Source: Catellatospora vulcania
GTDB lineage: Bacteria > Actinomycetota > Actinomycetes > Mycobacteriales > Micromonosporaceae
Direction: 5' to 3'
DNA: 64,000 nt
Assembly: GCF_009720385.1 (NCBI RefSeq)
Contig: NZ_WARX01000007.1
Location: forward strand, 248,001-312,000
The position numbers and the translations under genes were made by a program. The notes beneath the pieces are model-generated. The model had not been told where the DNA came from, ran no database searches, and saw only the letters and a list, made by a program, of their open reading frames with translations. Of this stretch, positions 41,184 through 58,207 are shown in pieces (position 1 is the first letter of the stretch; each line of letters opens with the position of its first letter).

Positions 41184-41319
41184 AACGCGCACTGGCGTAT
41201 GTATGACAGCCCCTATCAGTGCGAGTATTTCCATGTGACAATGGCTTCCGCGAAGGACGGGGCCCTCGCCGCCGTACCCCCACTCGGACGTGTTCGTGTC
41301 ATCGGAGGCTGCGCGGAAT

Positions 41320-41691
41320 ATGTACCGCACCATGCTCAAGTCCAAGGTCCACCGGGCCACGGTCACCCAGGCGGAGCTGCACTACGTCGGCTCCCTGACC
41401 CTGGACCCCGACCTGATGGACGCCGCCGACCTGCTGCCCGGTGAGCTCATCCACGTCCTCGACGTCACCAACGGGGCCAGGCTCGAGACCTACGTCATCG
41501 AGGGCGCGCGGGGCAGCGGCGTGGTCTGCGTCAACGGCGCGGCCGCACACCTGATCCACCCCGGCGACCTCGTCATCATCGCCGCGTACGCGATGATGTC
41601 CGACGAGGAGTCGCGCGACTGCAAGCCGAAGGTCGTCTTCGTCGACGAGGCCAACCGCATCGCCTCGGTGCACAGCGATCCTGCCGTCTGA
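41320..41691 (+). CDS. panD: Aspartate 1-decarboxylase, pyruvoyl type
   Basis: 123 aa from ATG 41320 (GGAGG at 41304-41308). Starting there puts the self-cleavage site at Gly24-Ser25 ([11 protein letters not shown]), exactly the PanD numbering, which confirms the start. Further family text: [67 protein letters not shown]. It converts L-aspartate to beta-alanine after forming a pyruvoyl group. As first gene of the eight-gene run, it indicates a beta-alanine demand of the pathway beyond pantothenate. Confidence 0.93.
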
Positions 41692-41694: not shown

Positions 41695-42786
41695 ATGACG
41701 AACCGGCACCACATCGCCATCGTCGGCAGCGGCTCGCTGGCGACCTCGATCTGCGAGTCGCTGGCCGCGCTCGCGCCGCCGCTCGGCGCGCTCAACGCGG
41801 CCCCGATCGAGGTCACCGTGCTCGCCCGCAATCCCGACGCGGTGTCGGCCATCGCCCGCCACTGCCGGGCACGGGCCGCCGTCGCCGGCACGGCGGTCAG
41901 CTTCACCGGGGAGCGGCTGGGCGACGAGGCCGCGACCCTGGCCCGGCTCCAGCCGACCTACCTGGTGTGCTGCGCGTCCGCCCAGTCGCCGTACGAGAAG
42001 GTCGACCGGCCCTCGGCGTGGACGCGGCTGATCGGGCAGGCCGGGTTCGGGGTGACGCTGCCGCTGCAGGCCACCGTCGCCGTGCGGCTGGCCCGCGCGA
42101 TCACCGCGGCCAGCCCGCACACCGCGCTGATCAACGGCTGCTTCCCCGACGCGGTCAACCCGTTGCTGGCCGCCATGGGGCTGCCGGTGCTCTGCGGCGT
42201 CGGCAACGTGGCCACCCTCGCGGCGTGCCTGCAGGCCGCCCTCGGGCTGCCCGATCAGCGCCGCCTGGCCGTGCTCGGCCACCACGCGCACCTCGACGCC
42301 CCCGACGTCCCCGGCGACGACGTGCTGGCCTGGCGCGACGGACGGCCGGTGCCCGGGGTGACGGGCCTGCTCGCACCCGACCGGGCGCTGCCCCGGCCGC
42401 AGCTCAACGCGATCGCCGGGCACGCCGCCGCCCGCCTGCTCACCGACCTGCTCTCCGGCGCGGAGGTGCACACCAGCCTGCCCGGTCCGCTCGGCCTGCC
42501 CGGCGGCTACCCGGTGCGGCTGACCGGCGGCGGGCTCGCGCTGAACCTGCCGGGCCTGAGCCCGGCGGAGGCGATCGAGTGGAACGTGCGCGCCGGCCGC
42601 CGGGACGGCATCGAACTCGGCGGCGGCCGCGTCCGGCACCTGCCCGCGGCGGTGTCCGCGCTGGAGCCCCACCTGCCCGAGCTGGCGCACGGCTGGGACG
42701 CCACCGACTACGACGCGGTGCAGGACCTGTTCCGCGTGCTGCGCCGCCGGCTGCGGGCCACGAGCCCCAGCCCGGCCCTCATCTGA
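41695..42786 (+). CDS. NAD(P)-binding dehydrogenase (LDH/MDH- or opine dehydrogenase-like)
   Basis: 363 aa, beginning 3 bp after panD. N-terminal Rossmann motif IAIVGSGSLATSICESLA, then VTVLARNPDAV. The middle (ALINGCFPDAVNPLLAAMGLPVLCGVGNVATLAACLQAALGL, VLGHHAHLDAPD) recalls lactate/malate dehydrogenases: an N..D substrate/cofactor loop, a G-x-G helix start and the catalytic H within GxH. Which fold member it is remains open; opine dehydrogenases share the first part. In this context it may form or reduce an unusual amino acid with the DUF6002 protein. Confidence 0.6.
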   Translation: MTNRHHIAIVGSGSLATSICESLAALAPPLGALNAAPIEVTVLARNPDAVSAIARHCRARAAVAGTAVSFTGERLGDEAATLARLQPTYLVCCASAQSPYEKVDRPSAWTRLIGQAGFGVTLPLQATVAVRLARAITAASPHTALINGCFPDAVNPLLAAMGLPVLCGVGNVATLAACLQAALGLPDQRRLAVLGHHAHLDAPDVPGDDVLAWRDGRPVPGVTGLLAPDRALPRPQLNAIAGHAAARLLTDLLSGAEVHTSLPGPLGLPGGYPVRLTGGGLALNLPGLSPAEAIEWNVRAGRRDGIELGGGRVRHLPAAVSALEPHLPELAHGWDATDYDAVQDLFRVLRRRLRATSPSPALI

Positions 42787-42822: not shown

Positions 42823-44193
42823 GTGCTCACGACAGCGACCGTCCCGGTGACCCGCAATCTCATCGTCGACTACTACGGAGTCATCGCGGCCGCCGTCGCC
42901 CGGCTCGGCGCCGGCCCCGGCGGCCCGGCGGGCACGGCCGCCTTCGCGCCCGGGTTCGACCTGCCGGAGCTGTCCGACGAGGTGCGGCAGTTCTTCGCCG
43001 TGGCCACCGCGACGTGGCGGGACCTGGGCGCGCACGGCGGCCACGGCGTGCAGTTCATGGACCTGACCGGCAACCCCGGCACGCACACCACCAAGACGTT
43101 CCCGTCGCTGCTCATCGTCGCCCGCGCCGTGCAGCACATCCGGCGGACCGGCGAGTCGGTCTGCATCTTCACCCCCACCTCGGCGAACAAGGGCATCGCG
43201 CTGCGCGACGCGGTCAGCCGCGCGATCGCCGCGAAGCTGGTCACCCCGGAGCAGCTGCGGGTCGTGGTGCTGGCGCCGGCCTCGACGCGCCACAAGTTCC
43301 GCCGCGACGCGCTGTCCGCCGACCCCGCGCTGCGGGCAGCCAACCCGCTGCTGCGCTTCGGCGGAGACGAGCCCGAGGGGGTCAAGGCACTCGGCCGGGC
43401 CTTCGTGGACGCGTACGCGCAGGAGGCGTACGACAAGCACGGCACCACGCTGTGGTTCTCCCTGGCGCTGCCGAACTACCTGGTCGCCGACGCGGCACGG
43501 GCCGCGTTCGAGCTGGACGCCGCCCCCGCGGTCGCCGCCGCGCCGCGCTGGCACGCGCATGCCGTGTCCAGCGCGTTCGGCCTGCTCGGCTACAACCTCG
43601 GCCGGGACGTGCTGGAGGACTCCGGGCGCGCGGACGGCTCGCCGCGGCCCGGTTTCCTGCTCGTGCAGCACCTGGGCACCCCGGACATGGTGCTCAACCT
43701 GCGGCACGGCTCGTTCTCCCGGGACGGGCTGCCCGCATACCGGCTGGACGCCGCGACCGGGCTGTGGGCGCAGGACGCCGACCCGCACTTCCCGGCCGTG
43801 ACCGGCGACCCCGGCGAGGTGCTCGACCCGACCTTCTACACCCACCAGCCGGTCACCTCACCCGCGATGAACGACCTGATCAGCCGGTACGGCGGCGACG
43901 GCATCACCGTCTCGCGGCACGAATGCGTCGCCCGCTACCCGCAGCTGCGGGAGTGGCTGCGCAACACCCCGTGCGAGCTGCCCGCCGACCCGGCGGACCT
44001 GCGCGAGTGGTCCATCGTCATGGCGCTGACCGGCGTGCTCAACGCGATCGACCGGGGACTCGTCCCGGCCGGTCGGGAGATCGTGGTGCACGGCTCGGGC
44101 AGCTACCGCGACGACGACTACGCGGTGTGCGAGCCGGACGCGCAGGTGTCCACGGTCGAGGAGATCGCGGCGGCGGTCCTGGGCGGCCGCTGA
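42823..44193 (+). CDS. DUF6002 protein, probable PLP fold type II enzyme
   Basis: 456 aa, GTG start after AAGGAG. The text NPGTHTTKTFPSLLIVARAV has the Lys context of PLP enzymes; CIFTPTSANKGIALRDAVSRAI matches the PTSGNTGIALA phosphate-loop motif of cysteine synthases and threonine synthases; and the C-terminus has VHGSGSY, like the SxN/HGSG end. These resemble the beta-family fold. This class makes unusual amino acids such as 2,3-diaminopropionate in natural-product clusters, in tandem with a dehydrogenase. Here its upstream neighbour is such a dehydrogenase. The reaction is not defined. Confidence 0.6.
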   Translation: MLTTATVPVTRNLIVDYYGVIAAAVARLGAGPGGPAGTAAFAPGFDLPELSDEVRQFFAVATATWRDLGAHGGHGVQFMDLTGNPGTHTTKTFPSLLIVARAVQHIRRTGESVCIFTPTSANKGIALRDAVSRAIAAKLVTPEQLRVVVLAPASTRHKFRRDALSADPALRAANPLLRFGGDEPEGVKALGRAFVDAYAQEAYDKHGTTLWFSLALPNYLVADAARAAFELDAAPAVAAAPRWHAHAVSSAFGLLGYNLGRDVLEDSGRADGSPRPGFLLVQHLGTPDMVLNLRHGSFSRDGLPAYRLDAATGLWAQDADPHFPAVTGDPGEVLDPTFYTHQPVTSPAMNDLISRYGGDGITVSRHECVARYPQLREWLRNTPCELPADPADLREWSIVMALTGVLNAIDRGLVPAGREIVVHGSGSYRDDDYAVCEPDAQVSTVEEIAAAVLGGR

Positions 44194-46679
44194 TGGCGAT
44201 CGTCGCGCCCTCCGCCGTGCTGGACGAGCTGGCCCGCGCCTGCGACGTCCCCGCTGACCAGGCCGCCCGCGCAGCCGTTGCGCTGCTGGCCCGCCGCTAC
44301 ACCGGCCGTGCCGCGCAGACCGTGCGCACGCCCGACGGCGCCGTCCACTTCGACCTGACCGTCGACGGCTCGGTCCGTGACCTGGTCACTGCCCCGGCCA
44401 TCGACAGCACGGAGCGGCTTTCGCCGGGTGAAGGAGATCAGCTCACCGACCTGGCCGTGCTGCCCGGCGACGGTGGGCTGGTCGTCGTCGGCTGCCCGGC
44501 GGAGCTGGCCGGGGCTTTCGCCGTGGACCTGGCGGCGCTGCTTTCCGTGATGGCCGCCGATCCTGGGCAGTCCACGGCGGACCTGTTGCCGGAGTCCGCG
44601 TACGAGCGCGGGCGGTCTGTCGACCGGGCGGCGCTGCACGGCGGGTCGCGACGGGAGCCGACCGGCTGGGAGCCGGGCTCGGCGGACACGATCTGCACCG
44701 CGTTCGCCGCGCAGGTCGCGCGCCATCCCGACCGTGCGGCTGTGCTCGCCGACGACGGGGAGCTGACCTACCGGCAGCTCGGGTCGGCCGTGGCGGCCAC
44801 CGTGGCGGCGGTCCGGGACGCGGTCGGCGACAGCGGTGGCGCGGGCCGCGCGGCGCTGCTGTGCCGGCACGGTGCGACCACGGTCGTCGGGCTGCTCGCC
44901 GCGCTGGCCGGCGGCCGGGCGTACGTGCCGCTCGAGCCGAGTTTCCCGGCCGGACGGCTGGCGCACATCCTCGCCGACAGCGACGCCGACGTGCTGCTGA
45001 TCGACGCCGCACACGCCGACCTGGCCCACCGCGTCGCCGCCGAGGCGGGCCGCCCGGACCTGACGATGGTCCACATCGAAGTGACCGCGCCCGCCGCCGA
45101 ACTCGACGAGCTGGTCGCGGCACTGCTCGGCCGCGCCGCGCCGGACGATCCGGCGTACCTGCTCTACACGTCCGGTTCGACCGGCGCGCCCAAGGCCGTG
45201 GTGCAGAGCCACCGCAACGTGCTGTTCGGGGTGGCCAACCACATCCGCAACTTCGCGATCTCCCCGGCTGACCGGACCAGCGTGCTCACCTCGTTCGGGT
45301 ACGACATGGCGGTCACCGACCTGTTCGGCGCGATCCTGTGCGGGGCCGCAGCGGTGCCGTCCGACATCCGCGAACACGGCCTCGGCCACCTCGCGCAGAC
45401 CATCGCCCGGCACGGCGTGACGATCTACCACTCGCCGCCGACCGTCTACCGCTACCTGCTGGCCGGGCTCGGCCCGGACGGGCGGCTGCCCAGCGTACGG
45501 GCGGTGCTGCTCGGCGGGGAGGAGGTCACCCGCCACGACGTGGAGCTGTGCCGACGCCACTTCGCCGCCGGGGCGGTGTTCGTCAACGGATACGGCACCA
45601 CGGAGATCAGCTTCGCGGCGCAGCACCACCTCGCCCCGGACGCTCCGCTGGACCACGCGGTGGTGCCGATCGGGCATCCGCTCGACGGCATCGACGTGGT
45701 GCTGGTGGACGCGGCCGGGCGGCCGGTCTGCCTGACCGGCGAGGTCGTGGTCCGCTGCGCGCACGTGGCGCTCGGCTACTGGGGCCGGCCGGAGCTGACC
45801 GCGAGCCGGTTCCGGGAGCACGGCGGCAGCCGCGCGTACTGGACGGGCGATGTCGCGCGGCGGCTGCCCGACGGGCGGCTGGTGTTCCTGGGCCGCGCCG
45901 ACCGCCTCGTCAAGATCCGCGGGTACCGGGTCGAGCTGGGCGAGGTCGAGTCCCGGCTGGCCGCCCTGCCCGGCGTCGGCCAGGCCGCCGTCGTCGCCCG
46001 CTCGAGCAGGCACGGCACGGGCCCGGAAGCCAAGGAGATCATCGCGTACACCGTCGCGGCCGGCGGCGCCGAAGTGGACCCGGGCAGCCTGCGTGCCGCC
46101 CTGGCCGAGCTGCTGCCCGACTACATGGTGCCGCGGGCGGTGATCGTGGTCGACGCGCTGCCGATGGGCGACACGGGCAAGCTCGACGTCCGGGCCCTGC
46201 CGGAACCGCCGGTCGCGGCCGTCCCCGCCCAGGTGCGCCGGAGCGCGGCAGCGGGTGAGCCCGATCCGCTGGAACAGGTGATCGCGGCGGCGTGGTGCGC
46301 GGCGCTCGGTGTCGACGCCGTCGACCGGCGCACCTCGTTCTTCGACGTGGGCGGTCATTCGCTGCTGCTGGCGCTGGTGCAGGAGCGGTTGCAGGCCGTA
46401 CTCGGCGAGCGGATCTCGATGATCCGGCTGCTGGAGTTCCCGACCGTCGCCGGACTCGCCGCCCACCTGCGCGCTGCCCGGCCCGCCGCGCGCCCGGGGC
46501 ACGACGCCCGGTCCGTGGCGGACGACCGGTCCGCCGCTGATGCGCCGATCACGGACGAGCAGTCCACGGCCGACAGCTGGACCGCGCTCGACGCCGGGCA
46601 GTCCCAGCTCGCCGACCGGATGCGCCGCCGTCGGGCGGCACGGCAGGGGTCGGCCGACCGGGTGGAGACGCCGTCATGA
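44193..46679 (+). CDS. NRPS protein: C-like remnant, adenylation, thiolation (A-T)
   Basis: 828 aa, 1-bp overlap with the preceding gene. Residues about 1-160 read like the C-terminal end of a condensation domain without its HHxxxDG half (LLPESAYERG just before A). The A domain spans 165-670: A3 LLYTSGSTGAPKAVV, A5 VNGYGTTEISF, A7 YWTGDVARRLPDG, A8 GRADRLVKIRGYRVELGEVE, A10 PMGDTGKLDVRAL. T domain S723 (DVGGHSLL). Hand-read specificity code D-M-T-H-L-G-G-F-A, which I cannot assign to a substrate. Acts as a loading/first module. Confidence 0.85.
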   Translation: MAIVAPSAVLDELARACDVPADQAARAAVALLARRYTGRAAQTVRTPDGAVHFDLTVDGSVRDLVTAPAIDSTERLSPGEGDQLTDLAVLPGDGGLVVVGCPAELAGAFAVDLAALLSVMAADPGQSTADLLPESAYERGRSVDRAALHGGSRREPTGWEPGSADTICTAFAAQVARHPDRAAVLADDGELTYRQLGSAVAATVAAVRDAVGDSGGAGRAALLCRHGATTVVGLLAALAGGRAYVPLEPSFPAGRLAHILADSDADVLLIDAAHADLAHRVAAEAGRPDLTMVHIEVTAPAAELDELVAALLGRAAPDDPAYLLYTSGSTGAPKAVVQSHRNVLFGVANHIRNFAISPADRTSVLTSFGYDMAVTDLFGAILCGAAAVPSDIREHGLGHLAQTIARHGVTIYHSPPTVYRYLLAGLGPDGRLPSVRAVLLGGEEVTRHDVELCRRHFAAGAVFVNGYGTTEISFAAQHHLAPDAPLDHAVVPIGHPLDGIDVVLVDAAGRPVCLTGEVVVRCAHVALGYWGRPELTASRFREHGGSRAYWTGDVARRLPDGRLVFLGRADRLVKIRGYRVELGEVESRLAALPGVGQAAVVARSSRHGTGPEAKEIIAYTVAAGGAEVDPGSLRAALAELLPDYMVPRAVIVVDALPMGDTGKLDVRALPEPPVAAVPAQVRRSAAAGEPDPLEQVIAAAWCAALGVDAVDRRTSFFDVGGHSLLLALVQERLQAVLGERISMIRLLEFPTVAGLAAHLRAARPAARPGHDARSVADDRSAADAPITDEQSTADSWTALDAGQSQLADRMRRRRAARQGSADRVETPS

Positions 46680-48061
46680 GCGAGGACGACCTGATCGCCG
46701 TGGTGGGCATGGCCTGCCGGGTGCCGGGCGCGCCGGACGTCGCGACCCTGTGGCGCAACCTGCTCGACGGGGTGGACGCCGTTCGCCGGTCCACCCCGGC
46801 CGAGCTGGTGGCGGCCGGGCTGCCCGTGGACGGCACGTACGTGCCCGCGTTCGGGCGGCTGGACGCGCTGGAGGACTTCGACGCGGCACGGTTCGGGTAC
46901 ACCGACGCCGAGGCCGCGCTGCTCGACCCGCAGCACCGCATCTTCCTGGAGTCGGCCTGGCACGCCCTGGAGGACGCCGGGCTCGATCCGGCGCGCGGGC
47001 AGACAGCCCCGATCGGCGTGTTCGCGGGCTGCGGCGTGAACCGATACCTGCGCCATCACCTGCTCGGCAACCCGGCGGTGAAAACGGCCGGGCCGCTGCC
47101 CGACGACTGGGACGACGCGCTGGCCGGGGGGACCTGCGACTACCTGCCCACCCGGGTCGCGTACGCGCTGGGCCTGACCGGCCCGGCCGTGGCCGTGCAG
47201 ACGGCCTGCTCGTCGTCGCTGGTCGCGGTGTGCCAGGCGGCGCAGAGCCTGCTCGACTTCCGGTGCGACGTCGCGCTCGCGGGCGGGGCGGCGGTCGTGT
47301 CGACCGGGCAGCTCGGCTACCGCCACCGGCCCGGCGGCACGTGGGCCGCCGACGGGGTGTGCCGGCCCTACGACGCGGACGCCACCGGTCAGGTCTTCGG
47401 CAACGGCGGTGGGGCTGTGGTGCTCAAACGGCTGCCCGACGCGGTCGCCGACGGCGATCACGTGTACGGCGTGCTGGCCGGCTGGGCGGTCAACAACGAC
47501 GGCGCGGCCCGCGCCGGTTTCAGCGTGCCGGGCGTGGCCGGGCAGGCGGCCGTGGTCGCCGAGGCCCTGGCCGCCGCCGACTGGGACGCGGGCAGCGTCG
47601 GTTTCGTCGAGGGCCACGGCAGTGGCACCGCCGTCGGCGACGCGATCGAGATCGAGGCGCTGACCCGCGCGTTCCGGGCGTCGGGCGGGCGTGCGGGACA
47701 CTGCGTGCTCGGCTCGATGAAGCCCAACACCGGCAACCTCGACGCCGCCGCCGGCGTGCTCGGCCTGATCAAGGCGGTGCTCGCGGTACGCGACGGGATG
47801 ATCCCGCCGACCCTGCACTTCCGCCGCCCGCACCCCGACGTGGACCTCGCGGCCTCGCCGTTCACCGTCGCGGCCGAGCTGCGTACCTGGTCCGGTGCGC
47901 GGCGGGCCGGGGTCAGCTCGTTCGGGCTGGGCGGCACCAACGCCCACGTGCTCGTCACCCAGGGCCCGGAACACGCGGGCCCGCCCCGGGTTCCCGTGCC
48001 CGGCTACGCGTTTCGGCGGCGGCGGCACTGGATCGAGCCGATGGCAGGCGACCATGCCTGA
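46676..48061 (+). CDS. Free-standing ketosynthase with altered active site
   Basis: 461 aa, ATGA overlap. KS fold with nucleophile C178 (VQTACSSSLVA), first histidine H314 (VEGHGSGTAVGD) and a C-terminal SSFGLGGTNAHVLV. The second catalytic His is missing: the NIGH motif reads KPNTGN, Asn354. The tail RVPVPGYAFRRRRHWIEP is a post-AT linker, so the gene looks like a KS-AT module that lost its AT. Without both His, decarboxylative Claisen condensation is not expected; acyl transfer or non-decarboxylating chemistry is possible. Confidence 0.85.
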   Translation: MSEDDLIAVVGMACRVPGAPDVATLWRNLLDGVDAVRRSTPAELVAAGLPVDGTYVPAFGRLDALEDFDAARFGYTDAEAALLDPQHRIFLESAWHALEDAGLDPARGQTAPIGVFAGCGVNRYLRHHLLGNPAVKTAGPLPDDWDDALAGGTCDYLPTRVAYALGLTGPAVAVQTACSSSLVAVCQAAQSLLDFRCDVALAGGAAVVSTGQLGYRHRPGGTWAADGVCRPYDADATGQVFGNGGGAVVLKRLPDAVADGDHVYGVLAGWAVNNDGAARAGFSVPGVAGQAAVVAEALAAADWDAGSVGFVEGHGSGTAVGDAIEIEALTRAFRASGGRAGHCVLGSMKPNTGNLDAAAGVLGLIKAVLAVRDGMIPPTLHFRRPHPDVDLAASPFTVAAELRTWSGARRAGVSSFGLGGTNAHVLVTQGPEHAGPPRVPVPGYAFRRRRHWIEPMAGDHA

Positions 48062-50366
48062 GCCGGACGGCCTCGTGCCGCTGGGCGACACCGGCTGGCA
48101 GGCGTGGCGCTCGGCCGTGCTGCGGGCGCCCGGGTTCCCCGCCACCGGTCTCGACCTGCTGGCCGCGCCCGAGTGCGCGAAGGAAGCCGACGCGCTGCTC
48201 GCCACCGGCGGCGACCGGGCCGCGTTCGACGGCGCGTTCGCGTCCGCGACCCGGCGGATGACCGCCCGCCTGCACGACATCGCCGCCGACCCGCTGTTCC
48301 GCGAGGCCGTGACCTGGCAGAGCCTGAACGCGGTCGAGGCCCTCGACGGGCTGCTGCGCGCGGGCCCGGACGCCAACCGCAACTCGCGGCACCGCCCGCG
48401 CGAGGTCCTGGTGACCCGCTACTGGCAGCGCTACTGCGGCAAGAACGACACCATCGGATTCTTCGGCCCGGTCTGCTGGGCGTCGCTGACCGACGGCGAC
48501 GCCACCGCCCGGGTCGAGCCCGGCCCGGGCCTGGTCCGCGCCCGTGTGGTCGACCTCGAACGCCGGGTCCTGTCCGCGTACGCCGACCGGCTCGCCGCCG
48601 ACCCGAGGTTCCGGCCGTGGCTGCCCGTGACCCGGCAACCCCAGCTGGCGCTGCGCGGCGACGACCTGCTCCAGGCCGGCGTGCCCGCAAGACGGCTGAC
48701 CCCCGCGCACACGGTCCTGCTGGGCGCGTGCGACGGCAGCCGCAGCGCCCGCGACGTGGCCGCGCTCGCCCTGGCCGATCCGCGCACCGGGCTGCGCCAC
48801 ACCTCGGACGCCCTGCTGGCGCTGACCCAGCTGGCCGAGCAGGATTTGCTGCGCTGGGGCGTCGAGCTGCCACTGACCGTCGCCGCCGAAGCCGAACTGC
48901 GCCGACGCCTGGCCGGGATCGCAGACCCGGCACTGCGCGAAGAAGCTCTGGCAGGCCTGACCCGGCTGCTCACCGCCCGCGACCGGCTCGCGGCCGCGGC
49001 CGGTGACGCGGCCGCGGTCCGGTCGGCCCTGCTCGGCCTGCAGGACGAATTCGTCGCGGTGACCGGCGGGGACGTGCTGCACCGCCCCGGCGCCACCTAC
49101 GCCGGGCGCGGCCTGGCCTACGAGGAGACGCTGCGCGACCTGGACGTCGAGTTCGGCGAGCCGCTGCTGACCATGCTCGCCGACACGCTCGTGCCGCTGC
49201 TGGAAGCCGCCCGCTGGCTGACCGCCGCGATCGCCGGGGCGTTCACGGTCGCGCTGCGCGAGCTGTACGACGACGCCGCCGCCGACGGCCCTGTCGCGCT
49301 GGGCGACCTGTTCGACGCGGCGCTCGGTGTCCTGTTCGGGCAGGGGCCGGTCGAGGACGTGCTCGCCGACTTCACCACGCGCTGGTCGCAGCTGCTCGGG
49401 CTGACCGGCCGGGTCGACGGCCCGATCACCCTCGACCCGGCCGAGGTCCGCGCCGGGGTCGCCCGGCTGTTCGGCGCGACCGCGCCCGGCTGGACCGCGG
49501 CCCGCCTGCACAGCCCCGACCTGCACCTGTGCGCGCCGAACGCGCAGGCGCTGGCCGACGGCGACTTCACCGCGGTGCTCGGCGAGCTGCACGTCTCCTG
49601 GCTCACCTGTGACAGCGGCACCCTCACCCGCTTCCACCCCGACCCGGCCGCGCTGCGTGCCGCACTGCACCGCGACCTGGGCGACCGGACCCTGCTCCTC
49701 TACCCGACGGACTTCCCCGAGTTCACCGCCCGGATCGCGTTCACCCTCGACGGGCCCGGCGACGTCCGGCTCGCCTACGGTTCGGCTCCCGTGCCGGATC
49801 CGGCGCAGGTGCTGCCGCTGGCGGCGGTGACGGTATCGCTCGTGGACGGAGAACTGACCGGCTCCGCCCCGGACGGGCGCGCCTGGCCGCTGCTGGAGCT
49901 GTTCGGCCCGTTCCTGTCGTCGCGGGCGGTCAACGCGTTCAAGGTCGCCGCCGACGGCGCGCACACCCCACGGGTGAGCATCGGCCGCCTCGTCGTGCAC
50001 CGCCAGACCTGGCGCACCACGGTCGCCGACTGCGGCCTCGACGACCAGCTCGCCGACGAGGCCGCCCGCTACCTGGCCGTACGCCGCTGGCGGGACCGGC
50101 TGGGGCTGCCCGAGCAGGTGTTCGTCCGGGTCGGCACCGAGGTCAAGCCGGTCTACGTCGACTTCACCAGCCCGGCGTACGTGGCCGCCTTCGTGGCGAT
50201 GGTCCGGGCCGCCGTGCGCACCGGCGGCCCCGGCGTGCCGTTGACGGTCTCCGAGATGCTGCCGGGGCCCGAGCAGGCGTGGGTGCCGGACGCGGCCGGG
50301 CGGCGCTACTTCAGCGAGCTGCGGATGGCGATCCGCGACCCGGCGTCCGCACCGACGAGGAGCTGA
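48054..50366 (+). CDS. LanB-like protein (lantibiotic dehydratase glutamylation domain type)
   Basis: 770 aa, 8-bp overlap with the KS gene. The N-terminal third has the LanB text SRHRPREVLVTRYWQRYCGKNDTIGFFGPV, and further family-like stretches follow (FNAFKVAADGAHTPRVSIGRLVVHRQTW, RLGLPEQVFVRVGTEVKPVYVDF). LanB proteins of this length hold the aminoacyl-tRNA-using glutamylation domain but lack the elimination domain; stand-alone forms (PEARL-type) add an amino acid from aminoacyl-tRNA to a peptide C-terminus. No precursor peptide is encoded here, so the acceptor may be carrier-bound. Confidence 0.78.
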   Translation: MPEPDGLVPLGDTGWQAWRSAVLRAPGFPATGLDLLAAPECAKEADALLATGGDRAAFDGAFASATRRMTARLHDIAADPLFREAVTWQSLNAVEALDGLLRAGPDANRNSRHRPREVLVTRYWQRYCGKNDTIGFFGPVCWASLTDGDATARVEPGPGLVRARVVDLERRVLSAYADRLAADPRFRPWLPVTRQPQLALRGDDLLQAGVPARRLTPAHTVLLGACDGSRSARDVAALALADPRTGLRHTSDALLALTQLAEQDLLRWGVELPLTVAAEAELRRRLAGIADPALREEALAGLTRLLTARDRLAAAAGDAAAVRSALLGLQDEFVAVTGGDVLHRPGATYAGRGLAYEETLRDLDVEFGEPLLTMLADTLVPLLEAARWLTAAIAGAFTVALRELYDDAAADGPVALGDLFDAALGVLFGQGPVEDVLADFTTRWSQLLGLTGRVDGPITLDPAEVRAGVARLFGATAPGWTAARLHSPDLHLCAPNAQALADGDFTAVLGELHVSWLTCDSGTLTRFHPDPAALRAALHRDLGDRTLLLYPTDFPEFTARIAFTLDGPGDVRLAYGSAPVPDPAQVLPLAAVTVSLVDGELTGSAPDGRAWPLLELFGPFLSSRAVNAFKVAADGAHTPRVSIGRLVVHRQTWRTTVADCGLDDQLADEAARYLAVRRWRDRLGLPEQVFVRVGTEVKPVYVDFTSPAYVAAFVAMVRAAVRTGGPGVPLTVSEMLPGPEQAWVPDAAGRRYFSELRMAIRDPASAPTRS

Positions 50367-50368
50367 CC

Positions 50369-53300
50369 ATGTCGACCGAACACGGCGCGGTCCTGGCCTT
50401 TCCCGACCGCAGATATCCCGACCTCGTCGCCGACCACGCGGCGGAGCGGCCCGACGCGGTCGCGGTCCGGCAGTGGGACACCGTGCTCACCTACCGGCAA
50501 CTGTGCACGGCAGCGGCGACGCTGGCGGCCACCCTGCGCGCGGCCGGCCCGCAGCCGCTGGTCGGGGTGTGCGCCGACCGGCAGCCGATGCTGGTCGCGG
50601 GCCTGCTCGGGGTGCTGGCGTCGGGCGCGGCGTACGTGCCGCTCGACCCCGCGCTGCCGCCGGCCCGGCTGCGCGACATCGCCCGCGAGGCGGGCCTGCG
50701 CACAGTCGTCTGCGACCCGCTCGGCGCACGCCTGCTCGACGGCGCGGACCTGCACCTGCTGCCGCTCCCGGCCGAAGCGGACTCAGCCGGTCGAGGGCCG
50801 GACAGGTGTGCCGCGGCGGCCGACGATCTCGCCTACGTGATGTTCACGTCGGGGTCGACGGGACGGCCGAAGGGCGTGATGATCCCGCACTCGGCGCTGA
50901 CCGAGTTCGTCGTCAGCCTTGCCGACATCGCCACTCTGAGCAGCGACAGCGTCGCGCTCGGGTTCGCGTCGATCGGGTTCGACGCCTCCGTCATCGACCT
51001 CCTGGCACCGCTCGCGGCGGGCGGGACGGTGGCGCTCGCCGGGACCGCCGACCGGGCCGACCCGGTGCGGCTGCAGCGCTTCTGCGCCGAGCACCGGGTC
51101 ACGGCCGCGTTCGTGCCCCCGGCGCTGCTGCCCGTGCTCGACCCGTCCGGCCTGCCGGACCTGCGGGTGGTGCTGACCGGCAGCGAGGCCCCGGGTCCGG
51201 AGCAGGTGGCGCGCTGGTCGGCCGGGGGCCGCCGGTTCCTCAACCTGTTCGGCCCGACCGAGACGACCGTGCTGGTCACCTGGTTCGAGGCGACCGGCGA
51301 CTGGGACCGGCCGCTGCCGATCGGCCGCCCGGCCGCCAACCACCGGGTGTACGTCGTCGACGAGCACCTGCGCCCGGTGGCCGACGGCGTGCCGGGAGAG
51401 CTGCTCGCCGGGGGCGCCGGGCTGGCCCGGGGCTACCTGGGTGCGCCGGACCTCACCGAGGAGCGGTTCGTGCCCGACCCGTTCTCCGGCGTGCCCGGCG
51501 CGCGGCTCTACCGCACCGGCGACCTGGTCGTCCGGCAACCGGACGGGCTGCTGCACTTCCTCGGGCGGGTCGACCGGCAGGTGAAGATCCGCGGTCAGCG
51601 CGTCGAGATCGGCGAGGTCGAGGCGGTGCTGCGCAGCCACCCCGGCGTCGGGCACGCGGCCGTCGCCGCCGTCGACGGCCCCGGCGGCACGCGGCTGATC
51701 GCTTTCACGACCGGCGCCGCGACCCCGCAGGCCCTGCACGAGCACTGCGCCGCCCGGCTCGGGCCCGCGATGGTCCCCGCCCGGATCACCGCCGTGCCGG
51801 AGCTGCCGCTGCTGTCCAGCGGCAAGGTCGACCTCGACCGGCTCGTCGCCGACGACGTGCCGCCCGTGGACGGGACACCGTTCGCCGCGCCGGCCACGCC
51901 GACCGAGACCGAGGTCGCCGCCGTCTGGGCCGAGCTGCTCGGGCTGGACCGGGTCGGCCGCGACGACGACTTCTTCGACACCGGCGGGCATTCGATCACC
52001 GCGATGCGGCTGGTCGCCGCCCTGCGCCCGCGGCTGCGCCGCGACGTGGCGATCGAGGACGTGCTGCAGGGCCGCACCCTGCGGGAGATCGCGGCCCGCG
52101 CGCAGGCCGCGGCCGTGCTCGGCGACCAGCCGCCGGCACGCGGACGCCCGCCCGCGCTGTCGCCCGCCCAGCAGCGCCTGTGGTTCCTGGAGCGGTACTC
52201 GCCCGAGGCCGCGGCCGCCTACAACATCGTGCTCGCCGAACGCCTGCACGGTCCCCTCGACTCCGCCGCGCTGGCCGCCGCGCTCGCGGCCGTCGCAGCA
52301 CGGCACGAGGTGCTGCGCTGGCGTATCCCGGACGCCGACGGGGCGCCGTACGCGGTGCTCGACCCGGCGGGCCCGGTGCCGCTGCCGGTCACGGACCTGA
52401 GCACGCTGCCGCCCGCGGCACGCGAACGCGAACTCGCCGCACAGCTGGCCGCCGAGGCGGGCGGCCGGTTCCGGCTCGCGACCGACGCGCTGTGGCGGCA
52501 CCGGCTGTTCCGGCTCGGCGAGGACGAGCACGTGTGGGCGGTCACCGCCCACCACGCCGTGTTCGACGGCTGGTCACAGGCCATGCTCTACGACGACCTC
52601 GCCACCGCGTACGCGGGCACGCCCCTGCCGCCGCTGCCCGCCACCTACGGCGACTACGTGGCCTGGCGGGCCGACCGGCGCGAGCAGCGCGCCGACACCG
52701 ACCTCGACTGGTGGACGTCCCACCTGGACGGTGCGCCGACCGTCCTCGAAGTGCCCGGCGACCGGCCCCGGCCCGCCGAGCAGACCTACCCCGCCGGGTA
52801 CAGCGGCACCTGGCTCGACCCCGACACGACTGCAGACCTGCACCGCTTCGCCCGGGAACAGGGCGCGACCCCGTCGGCGGTGCTGCTCGCGGCGTTCGGG
52901 CTGGTCCTGGCAAGCTGGGCCGGGCAGGACGAACTGGTGATCGGCACCCCGGCCGTGGACCGCCGGCACCCCGACTTCGAGCCCATGGTCGGCTTCTTCG
53001 TCGACATCACCCCGCTGCGGCTGCGCACGGACGCGGGTCTCAGCTTCGCCGCACATGTGCGCGCCGCCCGCGACGAGCTGATCGCCGCGCTGGCCCACCC
53101 CGAAGCGCCCCTGGAGCGCCTGGTGCAGGCGTTCGGGCTGGGCGGTCAGACGGTCCGCAGCCCGCTGGTCCAGGTGCTGTTCAACGTGTTCAACTTCGCC
53201 GCGCCCCGGCTCGACCTCAAGGGGCTGGTCAGCGAGCCGGTGCCGGTGCCCGCGCCGGGTTCGGCGTTCGACCTGACGCTCTACGGCGTGGAGCGCGAGG

Positions 53301-53842
53301 GCCGGATGCGGCTGGAAGTCGTGCACAACAGCGACCTCTACGACACGTCCCGGATGGACCTGCTGCTGGACTCGCTCCGGCAGGTGATCGTCCGTGGCGT
53401 CGCCGAAGGCGACCTGCCCGGCGGCGAGCTGGCCCCTGCGCGCGGCGTGACTGCCGTCGAGTCCCCGCGAGCCCGGTTGCGGCCGACAAGGCCGGATCAC
53501 GTCGGCGTCCCCCCGGCGACCGCGACCGAGCAGGCCGTCGCCGCCGTGTGGTGCGAAGTGCTCGGCCGCGACGCCGTCGGGGTCACCGACAACTTCTTCG
53601 ACTCCGGCGGCGGCTCGCTGGCCGCGGTCACCGTGCAGCAGCGGCTCAACCGGATGCTGGGCCGCGACCTGCGTGTCGTCGACCTGTTCCGGTACCCGAC
53701 CGTCCGCACGCTGGCGTCGTTCCTGGACGGCGCGACGGGCGTGGACAGCGCCGACGACGCGGTGGAACAGGCGTTGCGCCGGGGCGCGGCCCGGCGGGCG
53801 CGGACCCGGCACCGCGCCGCGACCGAAGGAGAGTCCCCGTGA
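50369..53842 (+). CDS. NRPS protein, A-T-C-T
   Basis: 1157 aa, start after GAGGAGCTG. A domain (12-500): A3 VMFTSGSTGRPKGVM, A4 GFDASVIDLL, A5 LNLFGPTETTVLV, A7 LYRTGDLVVRQPDG, A8 GRVDRQVKIRGQRVEIGEVE, A10 LLSSGKVDLDRL. First carrier Ser542 (DTGGHSITA); C domain 594-1020 with intact H728-H-A-V-F-D-G734; second carrier Ser1083 (DSGGGSLAAV). Hand-read code D-A-I-F-L-G-L-V-L suggests a neutral, hydrophobic amino acid. The A-T-C-T order is inverted relative to an ordinary C-A-T module: the C would join the amino acid on T1 to something on T2 or a partner. Confidence 0.88.
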   Translation: MSTEHGAVLAFPDRRYPDLVADHAAERPDAVAVRQWDTVLTYRQLCTAAATLAATLRAAGPQPLVGVCADRQPMLVAGLLGVLASGAAYVPLDPALPPARLRDIAREAGLRTVVCDPLGARLLDGADLHLLPLPAEADSAGRGPDRCAAAADDLAYVMFTSGSTGRPKGVMIPHSALTEFVVSLADIATLSSDSVALGFASIGFDASVIDLLAPLAAGGTVALAGTADRADPVRLQRFCAEHRVTAAFVPPALLPVLDPSGLPDLRVVLTGSEAPGPEQVARWSAGGRRFLNLFGPTETTVLVTWFEATGDWDRPLPIGRPAANHRVYVVDEHLRPVADGVPGELLAGGAGLARGYLGAPDLTEERFVPDPFSGVPGARLYRTGDLVVRQPDGLLHFLGRVDRQVKIRGQRVEIGEVEAVLRSHPGVGHAAVAAVDGPGGTRLIAFTTGAATPQALHEHCAARLGPAMVPARITAVPELPLLSSGKVDLDRLVADDVPPVDGTPFAAPATPTETEVAAVWAELLGLDRVGRDDDFFDTGGHSITAMRLVAALRPRLRRDVAIEDVLQGRTLREIAARAQAAAVLGDQPPARGRPPALSPAQQRLWFLERYSPEAAAAYNIVLAERLHGPLDSAALAAALAAVAARHEVLRWRIPDADGAPYAVLDPAGPVPLPVTDLSTLPPAARERELAAQLAAEAGGRFRLATDALWRHRLFRLGEDEHVWAVTAHHAVFDGWSQAMLYDDLATAYAGTPLPPLPATYGDYVAWRADRREQRADTDLDWWTSHLDGAPTVLEVPGDRPRPAEQTYPAGYSGTWLDPDTTADLHRFAREQGATPSAVLLAAFGLVLASWAGQDELVIGTPAVDRRHPDFEPMVGFFVDITPLRLRTDAGLSFAAHVRAARDELIAALAHPEAPLERLVQAFGLGGQTVRSPLVQVLFNVFNFAAPRLDLKGLVSEPVPVPAPGSAFDLTLYGVEREGRMRLEVVHNSDLYDTSRMDLLLDSLRQVIVRGVAEGDLPGGELAPARGVTAVESPRARLRPTRPDHVGVPPATATEQAVAAVWCEVLGRDAVGVTDNFFDSGGGSLAAVTVQQRLNRMLGRDLRVVDLFRYPTVRTLASFLDGATGVDSADDAVEQALRRGAARRARTRHRAATEGESP

Positions 53843-56817
53843 GCGACGATCTGACCGACGGACCCGAGCCCATCGCCGTGATCGGCATGGCCTGCCGGGT
53901 GCCCGGCGCACCCGACCTCGCCCGGTTCTGGGACAACCTGGTCGCCGGGCGCAGCGCGCGCACCGAACTGAGCCGCGAGCACCTGCAACGCGCCGGGGTC
54001 CCGGCGGAGCAGGTCGACGACCCCGATTTCGTACCGGTCGGCTACCTGCTCGACGACGTCGAGAACTTCGACGCGGGCCTGTTCGGCATGACCCCGCGCG
54101 AAGCCGCGCTGGCCGACCCGCAACACCGGCTGTTCCTGGAGCTGTGCCACGCCGCGCTGGAGCACGCGGGCTGGGACCCGGCCCGCTTTCCCGGCGACAT
54201 CGGCGTCTACGGCGGACGGGGCATGGAGACCTACCGCTGGCGGCACATCCACGCCAACCAGGCGATCATGGCGGTCACCGACCACACCACCATCGGCAAC
54301 GGCAACCACGCCGACACGTTCACCACCCTCGCCTCGTACCACCTGAACCTGCGCGGCCCGAGCGTCGGGGTCTACACGGCCTGCTCCACCTCGCTGGTCG
54401 CCGTGCACACTGCCGCCGAGGCGCTGCGTGCCGGTGAGTGCGACATGGCGCTGGCCGGTGGCGTCAGCATCGAGCTGCCCGCCGACCGGGGCTACCTGCA
54501 CCGCGAGGGCGCCGGCGACTCCGCCGACGGGCACTGCCGCCCGTTCGACGCGGCCGCGACCGGTGTCGTGGCGGGCAGCGGCGGGGGAGTGGTGCTGCTC
54601 AAGCGGCTCGCCGACGCGGTCGACGACGGCGATCACGTGTACGCGGTCGTGCTCGGCAACGCCGTCAACAACGACGGTGCGGCCAAGGTCGGGTTCACCG
54701 CCTCCGGCGTCGCCGGGCAGGCCGCCGCCGTCGCCAACGCGCTGGCCACCGCAGGTGTCGACCCGCGCACCGTGACCTACGTCGAGGCGTCCGCCACCGG
54801 CAGCGCCCTCGGCGACGCCATCGAGGTCGAGGCGCTGACCTCCGTGTACGGCCGCGGCCGCACCGACCGGCAGTGGTGTGCCCTGGGCTCGGTGAAGTCG
54901 AACATCGGCCACCTCAGCCAGGGCGCGGGCGTCGTCGGTCTCATCAAGACAGCCCTCGCCCTCGACCACAGCCTGATCCCGGCGAGCCTCGGCTACACGG
55001 CCCCGAACCCGGCCCTCGACCTGGACAAGAGCCCGTTCTACGTCAACGCGACCCTCGCCACCTGGGAGTCCGGCACGACCCCGCGCCGCGCCGCGGTCAG
55101 CTCGTTCGGCATCGGCGGCACCAACGCCCACGTCGTGCTCCAGCAGTCCCCCGCCCGCGAACCGGGCCGGCCGCCGCACCCCGCCGGCCGGCCGTCAGCA
55201 GCCGCGTCGACGCCGGCCGGGCAGGGCAGACCGCACCTGCTGACCGTCTCGGCCCGCTCGGCCGCCGCGCGGGACGCCGCCGCGTCACGGCTCGCCGACC
55301 ATCTCGCCGTGGCCGGTGACCTGGACCTCGCCGACGTCGCGCACACGCTGCGGGTCGGCCGGGCCGAGCACCCGTACCGCGCCGCGGTCGTCGCCACCGA
55401 CGCGACCGACGCCGCAGCCGCGCTGCGCACCCCGCAGCGCCGCCTCTCCGCCATCGCCGGCGGGACGCCGCGCGTGGTGCTGCTCTTCGGCGACCAGGCC
55501 GCCGTTCCCGCCGGGCTCGGCCTGTACGCCGCCGAACCCGCCTTCGCCGACGCCGTCGAGCGCTGCGCCGCCGCGGCCGGTCGCGATGCCCGCGACCTGC
55601 TGGCCGACCCCGTGCTCGCGCCGTTCACCGTCGGCTACGCCACGGCGCGGCTCTGGCAGTCGTGGGGATTGCGCCCCGCCACGATGCTCGGCCACGGCGC
55701 GGGCGAGTACGTCGCGGCGACCCTGGCCGGTGTGTTCGACCTGCCCGCCGCGCTGCGCCTGGTTGCCCTGCACGGGCGGCTGCTGCGCGAGGCCGCCGCC
55801 GAGGCCGCGTTCACGGTGTCGGCCGACGCGGAGAAACTGGCCGCGCTGCTCCCGCCGCAGGCGTCGATCGTCGCCGTCGACGGCCCTGCGACCTGCGTCG
55901 TCACCGGCCCGGCCGAGCTGCTGGAGCGGCTCACCGAACCGTCCGGCCGCAAGATCGCCACCCGGCGGCTGCGTACCGTCCACGCGTCCCCGCCCGCCGT
56001 CACCGACGCGATGGTCGGCGAGCTGGCCGCCGCGGTCGCCGCCGCACGCCCGTCCGCGCCGACCGGCCCCTACCTGTCCTGCCGCACCGGTCTGCCGGTC
56101 ACCGCCGACCAGACCCGTGATCCGAGCTACTGGGCCGGACTGCTGCGCGAACCGGTCCTGTTCGGACCTGGCGTCGCCACGGCGCTGGCCGGTGGTGCGA
56201 CACTGTTCCTCGAGTGCGGCCCCGGGCGCCGGCTGGCCGGTCTCGCCCAGATGCAGGCGCCCAAAGGCGGTCCCGCGCCGCAGCACAGCCTGCCCGCCGC
56301 AGCGGATCCGGCCGCGAAGGACCCCGGCGACGACGTCATGACCTGGTACACCGCAGCGGGGCTGCTGTGGGCGCACGGAGTGCCGTTGACCCTCGGCGAC
56401 ACGGGCCGACGCGTGCCGCTGCCCGGCTACCCCTACGAGCGCACCCGGCACTGGATCGAGCCCGACCCGCCCGTGGCCGTCCAGGCAGTCCCACTGGTGA
56501 CAGGGGGTGTGCCGGCAGTCGGCATAGCCACCGGCGCGGTGGTCGCAGGCGACGCGAGTGGGCACACGGAGCAGCCGGACGTGGCCGCCGCGCTCGCGCC
56601 GATCTGGTCCTCGCTGCTCGGCATCGAGCGGATCCGGCCCGACGACGACTTCTTCGCCATCGGCGGGACCTCGCTCACGGCGGTGCAGCTCGTCGCCCAG
56701 GTCCGGGCGTCGTTCGGGGTGCGGCTGTCGATGCGGCTGATCTTCGACGCGCCGACGCTGGACGAGATGGCCAGGACCATCGAACAGCGCCGAGCCGCCG
56801 CCGCGGCCCGGGTGTGA
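53839..56817 (+). CDS. PKS module KS-AT-ACP with mutated KS and AT active sites
   Basis: 992 aa, GTGA overlap with the NRPS gene. KS (about 12-435): C182 (YTACSTSLVA) and H358 (KSNIGH) are present, but the HGTGT motif reads EASATGS (Ser318 for His). AT-like domain (540-830): GHGAGEY, Gly620 in place of the nucleophilic Ser, and VHASPP instead of the HAFH/YASH specificity motif. Post-AT linker PLPGYPYERTRHWIEP; ACP S945 (AIGGTSLTA). The module looks unable to load malonyl by itself. A trans-acting AT would be needed, or the KS/AT act as structural scaffolds. Confidence 0.85.
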   Translation: MSDDLTDGPEPIAVIGMACRVPGAPDLARFWDNLVAGRSARTELSREHLQRAGVPAEQVDDPDFVPVGYLLDDVENFDAGLFGMTPREAALADPQHRLFLELCHAALEHAGWDPARFPGDIGVYGGRGMETYRWRHIHANQAIMAVTDHTTIGNGNHADTFTTLASYHLNLRGPSVGVYTACSTSLVAVHTAAEALRAGECDMALAGGVSIELPADRGYLHREGAGDSADGHCRPFDAAATGVVAGSGGGVVLLKRLADAVDDGDHVYAVVLGNAVNNDGAAKVGFTASGVAGQAAAVANALATAGVDPRTVTYVEASATGSALGDAIEVEALTSVYGRGRTDRQWCALGSVKSNIGHLSQGAGVVGLIKTALALDHSLIPASLGYTAPNPALDLDKSPFYVNATLATWESGTTPRRAAVSSFGIGGTNAHVVLQQSPAREPGRPPHPAGRPSAAASTPAGQGRPHLLTVSARSAAARDAAASRLADHLAVAGDLDLADVAHTLRVGRAEHPYRAAVVATDATDAAAALRTPQRRLSAIAGGTPRVVLLFGDQAAVPAGLGLYAAEPAFADAVERCAAAAGRDARDLLADPVLAPFTVGYATARLWQSWGLRPATMLGHGAGEYVAATLAGVFDLPAALRLVALHGRLLREAAAEAAFTVSADAEKLAALLPPQASIVAVDGPATCVVTGPAELLERLTEPSGRKIATRRLRTVHASPPAVTDAMVGELAAAVAAARPSAPTGPYLSCRTGLPVTADQTRDPSYWAGLLREPVLFGPGVATALAGGATLFLECGPGRRLAGLAQMQAPKGGPAPQHSLPAAADPAAKDPGDDVMTWYTAAGLLWAHGVPLTLGDTGRRVPLPGYPYERTRHWIEPDPPVAVQAVPLVTGGVPAVGIATGAVVAGDASGHTEQPDVAAALAPIWSSLLGIERIRPDDDFFAIGGTSLTAVQLVAQVRASFGVRLSMRLIFDAPTLDEMARTIEQRRAAAAARV

Positions 56818-56824: not shown

Positions 56825-58207
56825 TCAGACCTGCTTGACCAGCTCCGACAGATGAAGGTCGGGGTCGTCGACCACCGCGCGCAGCAGGCGCTCGTACCCG
56901 TCGGCGAACCCGGCCACCGTCGGCTCCGTCAGCAGGCCCGTGTCGTAGACGAACGTGGTCGACAGGCCCCGCGGGCCGGGCCGGGCGTACACCATCAGGT
57001 CGTGCAGCACCTTCGGGATCCCCAGACCGAAGTCCTCCACGACCAGGCCCGGCAGCGTCAACCGGCTCGCGACCTCGACCTCCTCATGTAGGAACATCGC
57101 CTGGAAACCCTGCGCCCGGCCCGGATGCGGCGGCTCGTCCAGCGCCGCGACGACCTGCCCCCACGGCAGGTCCTGGTGGTCCAGCGCGTCGATCACCGTC
57201 TCCCTGGTGCGGGCCAGGACCTCCCGGAACGTCGGATCGCCGGACAGGTCGCCGCGCAGCGCCAGCGCGTTGTTGAACAGCCCCACCAGCCGGGCCAGCT
57301 CCGGCCGGGTGCGCCCGACCCCGGCGACCGGGATGCCGATCGCGAAGTCGTCGCGCCCGCTCGCCCGCCACAGCAGCACGTGCAGCGCGGCGAGCAGCAC
57401 CATGAACCGGGTACAGCGCGCCGACCGGCCCAGCTCCTCGACCTGGCGGACCAGCTCCGGGTCGATGGTCCGGGCGAGCTGCGCCGCGGGCGCGCCCTTC
57501 GCCGCAGGCCGCGGCAGCGCGTCGACCAGCTCCAGCGGGGCCAGCCCGGCGAGCTGCTCGTGCCAGTACTCGCGGTCCTCGTCCTCCTTCTCCGTGTCGG
57601 CGACGGACTGCGACCACGCGAAGTCGCCGTACTGCACCGGAAGGTCCGGCAGGTCGGCAGTCACGCCCGCGACCAGCGCCGGGTAGAGCAGGCCGAGTTC
57701 GCGGTCGATGACGCCGAGGGACGCGCCGTCGGCGAGGATGTGATGGATGGTCATCCGCCACACGTGGTCGTCGTCGGCCAGGCGCAGCAGCGACGTGTGC
57801 ACCAGCGGGCCGGTCTGCAGGTCCAGGGCCAGGGTGCGGCGCTCGTCGAGCAGCTCACGGGCCCGCTGTTCGCGCTGGTCGGCCGGAAGGTCGCGCAGGT
57901 CGAGCAACTCCATCGGTATGCCGTTCGCGGGCCCGACGACCTGGACCGGGCCGTCGGGCCGGTCGACGAACAGCGTGCGCAGGATCTCGTGCCGGTTCAC
58001 GACCGCGTCGACGGCACGCGACCAGGCGTCGGCGTCCAGCGGGCCGCGGAACCGGTGCACCAGGTCCACCAGCGGCGACATGCCGCCGGGGTGGTTCGTG
58101 CAGAGCAGCCACCACCGGGCCTGCAGCGGGGTCAGCGGCAGCTCCACCAGATGTGACGGCCGGACGTTGACGGGGGACTCCGCTGTCACATCAAACATGG
58201 TGAACAT
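56825..58207 (-). CDS. Free-standing NRPS condensation-domain protein
   Basis: 460 aa. Complete C-domain core: LTPLQARWWLL, RHEILRTLF, H155-H156-I-L-A-D160-G161 active motif (MTIHHILADGAS), VQYGDFAW, IGIPVAGVGRTRPELARLVGLFNNALALR and later helices. It is convergent to the main operon (7-bp gap). Such free proteins release chains by condensation with a free amine or alcohol, or join two carrier-bound pieces; here it is the only release candidate visible. Start ATG 58207; 58198 is an alternative. Confidence 0.85.
   Translation of the reverse strand: MFTMFDVTAESPVNVRPSHLVELPLTPLQARWWLLCTNHPGGMSPLVDLVHRFRGPLDADAWSRAVDAVVNRHEILRTLFVDRPDGPVQVVGPANGIPMELLDLRDLPADQREQRARELLDERRTLALDLQTGPLVHTSLLRLADDDHVWRMTIHHILADGASLGVIDRELGLLYPALVAGVTADLPDLPVQYGDFAWSQSVADTEKEDEDREYWHEQLAGLAPLELVDALPRPAAKGAPAAQLARTIDPELVRQVEELGRSARCTRFMVLLAALHVLLWRASGRDDFAIGIPVAGVGRTRPELARLVGLFNNALALRGDLSGDPTFREVLARTRETVIDALDHQDLPWGQVVAALDEPPHPGRAQGFQAMFLHEEVEVASRLTLPGLVVEDFGLGIPKVLHDLMVYARPGPRGLSTTFVYDTGLLTEPTVAGFADGYERLLRAVVDDPDLHLSELVKQV

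Follow-up and report, generated by a model that had tools for sequence, protein, structure and literature searches.

A LanB-family gene in an operon for non-ribosomal synthesis

What might a LanB-family protein do in a gene cluster with no recognisable precursor peptide? The question is posed by a 64,000-nucleotide stretch of Catellatospora vulcania DNA (contig NZ_WARX01000007.1, positions 248,001 to 312,000; hereafter the window), in which one such gene, encoding the protein P0001, stands among genes for a non-ribosomal peptide synthetase (NRPS) and a polyketide synthase (PKS). Our answer, drawn from sequence comparison and structure prediction, is that P0001 is probably a PEARL-like (peptide aminoacyl-tRNA ligase-like; SnaE-type) ATP- and aminoacyl-tRNA-dependent amide ligase of a non-ribosomal pathway, and not a dehydratase. 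What the analysis shows is the predicted fold, the conserved residues, the genomic context, the absence of a ureido-type condensation motif and the absence of a recognisable precursor. The gene lies as follows:

48054..50366 (+), P0001, PEARL-like LanB-family protein of 770 amino acids (PF04738 without PF14028; AlphaFold2 model; fold matches; PEARL residues)

The open reading frame (ORF) at 47895..50366 (+) holds an in-frame ATG at 48054 that gives the 770-residue protein. This start overlaps the stop of the preceding ketosynthase (KS) gene (46676..48061) by 8 bases, and an NRPS gene, A-T-C-T in its domains (A, adenylation; T, carrier; C, condensation), begins directly 3′ of it at 50366, so that the placement between KS and NRPS genes described in the original prediction is correct. 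Codon-position G+C of the 823-residue ORF (0.78/0.57/0.94) has the real-gene pattern of this DNA, and dN/dS for the LanB gene was 0.23, 0.23 and 0.41 in comparison with three Catellatospora loci. A chance or non-coding reading frame was rejected on these two grounds, and the evidence from the sequences argues for a genuine conserved gene far beyond chance. Within the gene, ARAGORN called a tRNA-Ala (GGC) at 49785..49883 (+). This call has no counterpart in L053 to L056, which yielded just two calls, for different tRNAs at different sites, and it is probably an artefact.

Pfam assigned PF04738 (Lant_dehydr_N) to P0001 with E 1.8e-29 and 102.9 bits (cut-off 28), and the LanB N-terminal signature noted earlier, RYCGKNDTIGFFGPV, was found at residues 126–140. 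The elimination domain, PF14028, was not found in P0001 by the Pfam scan, again as predicted. The gene is the sole PF04738-bearing gene of its genome at E <= 0.001, both matches lying inside P0001; in sequence set A2, PF04738 was present in 27 of the 28 members and no other family was listed. NCBIfam offered no family for the LanB protein, nor for a 363-residue and a DUF6002 protein encoded upstream. A phmmer search of PDB with P0001 as a single sequence gave no match, and a LanB profile gave TbtB as the only plausible relative among 23 rows.

Predicted fold and active-site residues

The AlphaFold2 model of P0001 (predicted local distance difference test, pLDDT, 90.2) has the fold of a full-length LanB glutamylation domain and matches TbtB, MibB, MadB and NisB, which bears out the structural expectation of the original prediction. 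We then compared P0001 with the PEARL BhaB7 at the ATP- and tRNA-contact positions given in PMC12945691 and PMC11962472. Columns were mapped through PEARL-type homologues whose numbering fits the papers, and the mapping is supported by one L138 protein, whose residue numbers are within one of the published BhaB7 numbers from Y426 on. At 13 of the 15 positions, P0001 has the BhaB7 residue. At the ATP/Mg site, the BhaB7 residues R34, Y426, D558, E575 and H577 correspond to R24, Y349, D489, E511 and H513 of P0001, and R715, F755, K763, E813 and R815 to R650, F690, K698, E755 and R757. The contacts to the tRNA 3′-CCA end are also kept (Y205 as Y123, R208 as R126 and R429 as R352); mutants of BhaB7 at these three residues were severely impaired, according to PMC11962472. 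The 13 matching positions are nearly invariant across 137 aligned family rows, the ATP-grasp-type positions being kept in 134 to 137 rows except for F or Y at 690.

Nine PEARL-type sequences served as controls. Four are the LanB-like genes of one locus (L129:5680-16159 with L130:1573-4068), in which a gene for an 86-residue precursor is followed by four PEARL-type LanBs, and the other five come from L131 and L138. The dehydratase controls were three canonical LanBs of full length, each with PF14028. L133, L137, L139 and L141 were aligned but left out of the controls; L139 and L141 look PEARL-type, and L133 and L137 do not. At positions 511, 513, 650, 698 and 757 the three canonical LanBs differ from the family, and R352 stands opposite a gap in them. 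R361 is Arg in all 137 family rows and Gly or Ser in all nine PEARL-type controls; judging from the alignment, it is a possible mark of the family and a candidate mark of small-molecule as against peptide substrates.

In a tree of 71 rows, rooted at the midpoint and containing some long branches, the 55 rows of this LanB family form one fork with a support of 100. With the same rooting, these and the PEARL-type rows make up a group of 66 rows (fork 99), outside which lie the canonical LanBs and two unclassified rows. A canonical dehydratase was rejected because P0001 has no PF14028 and carries residues of the PEARL kind. A related possibility is that P0001 acts as a glutamyltransferase of the LanB type and esterifies a hydroxyl group on the product, toward dehydration by an unlinked elimination domain. 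The whole predicted fold, the same as that of TbtB, MibB and NisB, would suit such an activity. However, PF14028 is absent from P0001 and the scanned cluster proteins, to which that search was limited; H513, R650, K698, R757 and R352, which separate the PEARL-type sequences from the three LanBs, are of the PEARL kind in P0001; and the tree, with its midpoint root and long branches, sets the LanBs apart. We therefore regard a glutamyltransferase as extremely improbable.

Relatives of the gene and the search for a precursor peptide

Of the order's 298 genomes, 51 have a LanB match (E <= 1e-5, own genome included), and the GTDB contigs contain 491 stretches that code for a relative. Nearest among the named loci are those of Catellatospora coxensis (90%), C. 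paridis (88%) and C. bangladeshensis (70%), and gene order is conserved in the window and three Catellatospora loci. Sixteen records of a plasmid collection matched, all below 60% identity. The comparisons that follow use 76 named loci, the remainder of the best 80 of the 491 relatives, with a bias to close relatives; some loci are one stretch under two identifiers (e.g. L034/L059, L033/L064, L051/L125 and L073/L155), and counts refer to loci, copies or rows, not to independent events. An A-T-C-T protein is encoded in 65 of these loci, a KS in 65 and a KS–acyltransferase (AT) protein in 69, with all three in 62. One LanB copy is present in 40 loci, two in 35 and three in one.

The original prediction had also stated that no precursor peptide, LanC or protease gene lies nearby. 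Among the proteins predicted from 25.4 to 59.8 kb, Pfam detected no LanC or protease family. For precursors, short ORFs of at least 20 residues and with less than 30% overlap with listed genes were checked for conservation against four loci. The sole candidate within the operon, a 28-residue ORF in the gap before the aspartate decarboxylase gene (41216..41302, −), is alike in L056 (89%) and in L053 (60% over 25 residues), and we judged it to be antisense sequence and not a precursor. The PLALA motif is a mark of PEARL substrate peptides (PMC11962472); in the window, no ORF under 160 residues carries P-[LIVM]-A-[LIVM]-A in the 25 residues nearest its end. A PEARL for ribosomally synthesized and post-translationally modified peptides (RiPPs) with a hidden precursor was rejected on the basis of the small-ORF conservation list and the motif scan, and on this point, too, the earlier description holds.

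P0001 might instead serve a RiPP carrier peptide encoded elsewhere, its position in an NRPS operon being incidental. This is very unlikely. Its KS, A-T-C-T and KS-AT neighbours co-occur, as noted, in most loci and across several families; the operon lacks a convincing precursor, unlike the control locus in genome G224 (L129), whose 86-residue precursor carries IAPLALA; and the RiPP recognition element is reported in PMC11962472 to be dispensable for substrate engagement in two PEARLs.

The carboxylate to be extended

A PEARL-like enzyme in a non-ribosomal pathway has a published precedent. As described in PMC11212132 (2024), SnaE (ADD43711.1), from the threopeptin (sna) NRPS-PKS cluster of Stackebrandtia nassauensis, is needed for the addition of Thr to the carboxylate left free by a ureido-forming C domain with the motif EHHxxHDG, and the paper puts the number of NRPS/PKS clusters with such a gene at about two thousand. 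With SnaE and threopeptin in print, the merger of aminoacyl-tRNA and NRPS logic that the original prediction took to be new was already known. Our literature search, mostly outside subscription journals and supplements, found no paper describing the present cluster type.

The C domain encoded in the window has the motif AHHAVFDG and not the ureido motif. With a 40% identity limit, a C motif was readable in all 65 A-T-C-T orthologues, as HHAVFDG in 60, HHAVADG in four and HHNVFDG in one (among the NRPS matches of a separate search, L062, L079, L085 and L088 had no readable C motif). None of the 65 has the ureido motif, which among L033–L166 occurs only in L047 and L152, the positive controls for it. 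These are ordinary C motifs, so the ureido rationale does not apply and another carboxylate must be the target. Extension of a carboxylate from ureido reversal is the only published rationale we found for PEARL-like enzymes in NRPS/PKS clusters; it misses this actinobacterial group, and the target carboxylate thus becomes a directly testable question.

Thioesterase matches were obtained in 61 of the 76 named loci; in 63 of 97 loci examined, a LanB copy has a thioesterase no more than 1.5 kb upstream of it. Among 138 LanB copies, 46 (a third) have the thioesterase fused in frame and 17 have it separate but close. This arrangement suggests, as its simplest reading, that the thioesterase frees an acid which the LanB-like domain then extends; in thioesterase-bearing loci the likeliest substrate is the chain just hydrolysed from its carrier. 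The frequent fusion suggests a general logic of release followed by tRNA-dependent re-extension, which would allow amino-acid caps to be predicted for orphan products in genome mining and would bring in ligases that possibly act on small acids instead of peptides.

From these comparisons we infer ATP use, tRNA use and a free-carboxylate substrate for P0001. It would bind ATP in an ATP-grasp-like site and phosphorylate a free carboxylate on a small molecule that the assembly line has produced or released; prior phosphorylation is what the retention of the ATP-grasp-type residues D489, E511, H513, R650, K698, E755 and R757 implies. The amino group of an aminoacyl-tRNA would attack the acyl phosphate, and the tRNA would be hydrolysed off afterwards. 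A carboxyl group out of reach of thioester chemistry would thereby gain one amino acid.

The original prediction had envisaged transfer from tRNA to a carrier-protein thioester. In this alternative the amine of the aminoacyl-tRNA reacts with a thioester on a T domain, or the substrate is a T-bound chain with a free carboxylate elsewhere. Two fusions, both in frame by tblastn coordinates, are in its favour: C-A-T-LanB in L044:5343-11096 (+) and A-T-Curea-A-T-LanB, a single protein with EHHFVHDG, in L047:8745-16115 (−). In both, the LanB domain is C-terminal to complete NRPS modules, although PF04738 was not listed in the Pfam scan of these long proteins; the L047 fusion resembles SnaA and SnaE joined into one protein. 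The A-T-C-T protein, whose second T lacks an A domain, also fits, and action on T-bound intermediates is left open for SnaE in PMC11212132. On the other hand, the ATP site is intact throughout the family and a thioester is already activated, which makes thioester attack less likely, and carrier fusions occur in two loci, with no systematic count, as against the many thioesterase fusions. We consider carrier-bound action unlikely, with some weight still to be given to it. Of the earlier proposal, then, the aminoacyl-tRNA-dependent ligase is very probable, on the 13 matching residues and the operon context, and the thioester chemistry is disfavoured by the retained ATP site.

Several observations weigh against a PEARL-like ligase of free acids. 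Q201 and R197 of BhaB7, which contact the tRNA helix, correspond by spacing to L119 and P115 of P0001, at positions that are variable in the family. Among the nine PEARL-type controls, Q119 occurs in three and R115 in six, and position 511 itself varies (five E, two D, two R). SnaE was demonstrated genetically, its use of tRNA and ATP being deduced, in PMC11212132. No thioesterase lies within 1.5 kb upstream of 75 of the 138 LanB copies, that of the window included. Finally, L067, L123, L126 and L127 (four of the 76 loci, two of them short stretches) gave no match to the NRPS/PKS queries; the LanB family is thus not tied to NRPS without exception.

Genes around the ligase

In the order of the DNA, the genes of the cluster are:

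38378..39649 (+), cytochrome P450 (Pfam)

39639..41183 (+), acyl-CoA ligase-type adenylating enzyme (Pfam; PDB matches)

41290..41691 (+), aspartate 1-decarboxylase PanD (PF02261; TIGR00223 above cut-off)

41695..42786 (+), putative dehydrogenase-like protein of 363 residues, weak evidence (no Pfam family; synteny with DUF6002 in relatives)

42823..44193 (+), DUF6002 protein with a predicted threonine-synthase-type pyridoxal phosphate (PLP) fold (PF19465, E 6.2e-195; AlphaFold2, Foldseek)

44190..46679 (+), NRPS adenylation-carrier protein A-T, 829 residues (Pfam)

46676..48061 (+), stand-alone KS with Cys and first His kept and second His replaced by Asn, GNLD (Pfam; motif alignment)

50366..53842 (+), NRPS A-T-C-T, 1158 residues, C motif AHHAVFDG (Pfam; motif)

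53839..56817 (+), KS-AT-T with catalytic residues lost and carrier Ser kept (Pfam; 78-row alignment; T motif from the translation)

56825..58207 (−), stand-alone condensation domain protein, HHILADG (Pfam; translation)

58251..59810 (−), MFS transporter (Pfam)

P0001 lies between the stand-alone KS and A-T-C-T. The genes from the P450 to KS-AT-T are thus all on the forward strand, the condensation protein and the transporter closing the order (38.4–59.8 kb) on the other; those between 41.29 and 56.8 kb are packed nearly without gaps. Beside the cluster and outside it, a gene at 34195..38463 (−) encodes a 1422-residue protein in which Ig-like domains of the HYDIN/ASH type and F5/8 type C domains were recognised. 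Farther off, VWA_CoxE, AAA_5 ATPase and DUF5682 genes are consecutive at 25392..30859 (+).

We infer that PanD supplies β-alanine. We considered the acyl-CoA ligase as an activator of β-alanine; in the PDB it is closest to ligases of the fatty-acyl and feruloyl types. The second T of A-T-C-T (50366..53842, +) has no A domain of its own. Loading of the acceptor amino acid must therefore occur in trans, and the separate A-T protein may do this. The predicted structure of the DUF6002 protein has the threonine-synthase PLP fold (Foldseek E 1.7e-10), and our literature search found nothing on DUF6002; the 363-residue protein has one weak PDB profile match, to 5-ketofructose reductase (E 0.0059). 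SbnA and SbnB make diaminopropionate, and by analogy with them the DUF6002 and dehydrogenase-like pair may make a non-protein amino acid.

The pair divides the 76 loci into subtypes. Both genes are present in 23 loci and only one of the two in a further two. Loci of the DUF6002 type have a single LanB in 22 of 23 cases, and two LanB copies are present in 34 of the 53 loci without the pair. The stand-alone KS follows the same division: its second His is Asn in 21 of the 23 DUF6002-type loci (His in one and unreadable in one), and among 42 rows from other loci it is His in 36, Asn in one and unreadable in five, giving six unreadable positions in 65 rows. A Cys-His-Asn triad is that of KAS III and chalcone synthase, and by this analogy the Asn may reflect changed chemistry and not loss of function.

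Lost catalytic residues in the last PKS module

In the KS-AT-T protein of the window, the KS His (EASATGS), the AT Ser (GHGAG) and the AT His are lost and the carrier Ser (GGTS) is kept. The same three losses are found in five of 78 KS-AT rows, namely the window and L053 to L056 (three Catellatospora loci and Rhizocola hellebori), and the KS His and AT His are kept in the other 73. In the AT Ser column, among the 14 commonest motifs, GHS stands in 69 rows and is absent from the five lineage rows, with four rows falling outside those motifs. The KS is the most constrained part of the protein (dN/dS 0.14 to 0.18). On this sequence evidence, polyketide extension by KS-AT-T looks erased and the protein kept under selection. 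No thioesterase match was obtained in the window with one seed (E 1e-6), nor in the four lineage relatives in a view of about 10 kb on each side.

These losses raise the possibility that the LanB gene is merely carried along and is itself in decay: the KS and AT residues have gone in the same lineage, and the window has no thioesterase match. In contrast, the LanB gene is under constraint (dN/dS 0.23 to 0.41) with its catalytic positions intact, and gene order is maintained in the Catellatospora loci, so that decay is highly improbable. The LanB step may be preceded or replaced by the action of the stand-alone C protein, PanD or the acyl-CoA ligase. A more speculative and rather improbable reading is that this Catellatospora/Rhizocola lineage has replaced terminal PKS extension and the thioesterase: the tRNA-fed PEARL-like ligase, with the free-standing condensation protein, would complete the chain, and KS-AT-T would remain merely as scaffold and carrier. 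If so, the last building block would come from the aminoacyl-tRNA pool of the ribosome with no ureido chain reversal, and the substrate might still be carrier-bound.

Comparison with known systems

P0001 shares the overall fold, the N-terminal Arg and the tRNA-helix Tyr and Arg with NisB, MibB and TbtB. It differs from them in having neither an elimination domain nor a precursor that could be found, and in carrying PEARL-specific residues. With the PEARLs of RiPP pathways (BhaB7, TglB and AmmB) it has in common the fold class, the size class and most of the ATP/tRNA positions. It departs from them in that no carrier peptide gene was found in the window, the equivalents of Q201 and R197 are not kept, and R361 replaces the Gly or Ser of the controls.

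The closest likeness is to SnaE, which was compared by its description and not by sequence. Both are annotated as LanB, lack a precursor and are encoded beside an NRPS and a KS-AT-T, in keeping with PEARL-like amide bond formation in a non-ribosomal pathway. The sna cluster combines A-T-C(urea)-A-T, of motif EHHxxHDG, with an MbtH protein, a thioesterase and an acyl-CoA dehydrogenase. The window instead has A-T plus A-T-C-T with AHHAVFDG, an extra KS, PanD and the DUF6002/dehydrogenase-like pair, with no thioesterase found and a KS-AT that looks inactive; MbtH was not found in the cluster, the matches in the genome lying elsewhere (C5:451073 and C1). Membership of the threopeptin type was rejected on the lack of the ureido motif, the thioesterase and MbtH. 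Overall, the P0001 cluster is of a different type from that of threopeptin, a variant of the kind first shown in 2024 and not a new category.

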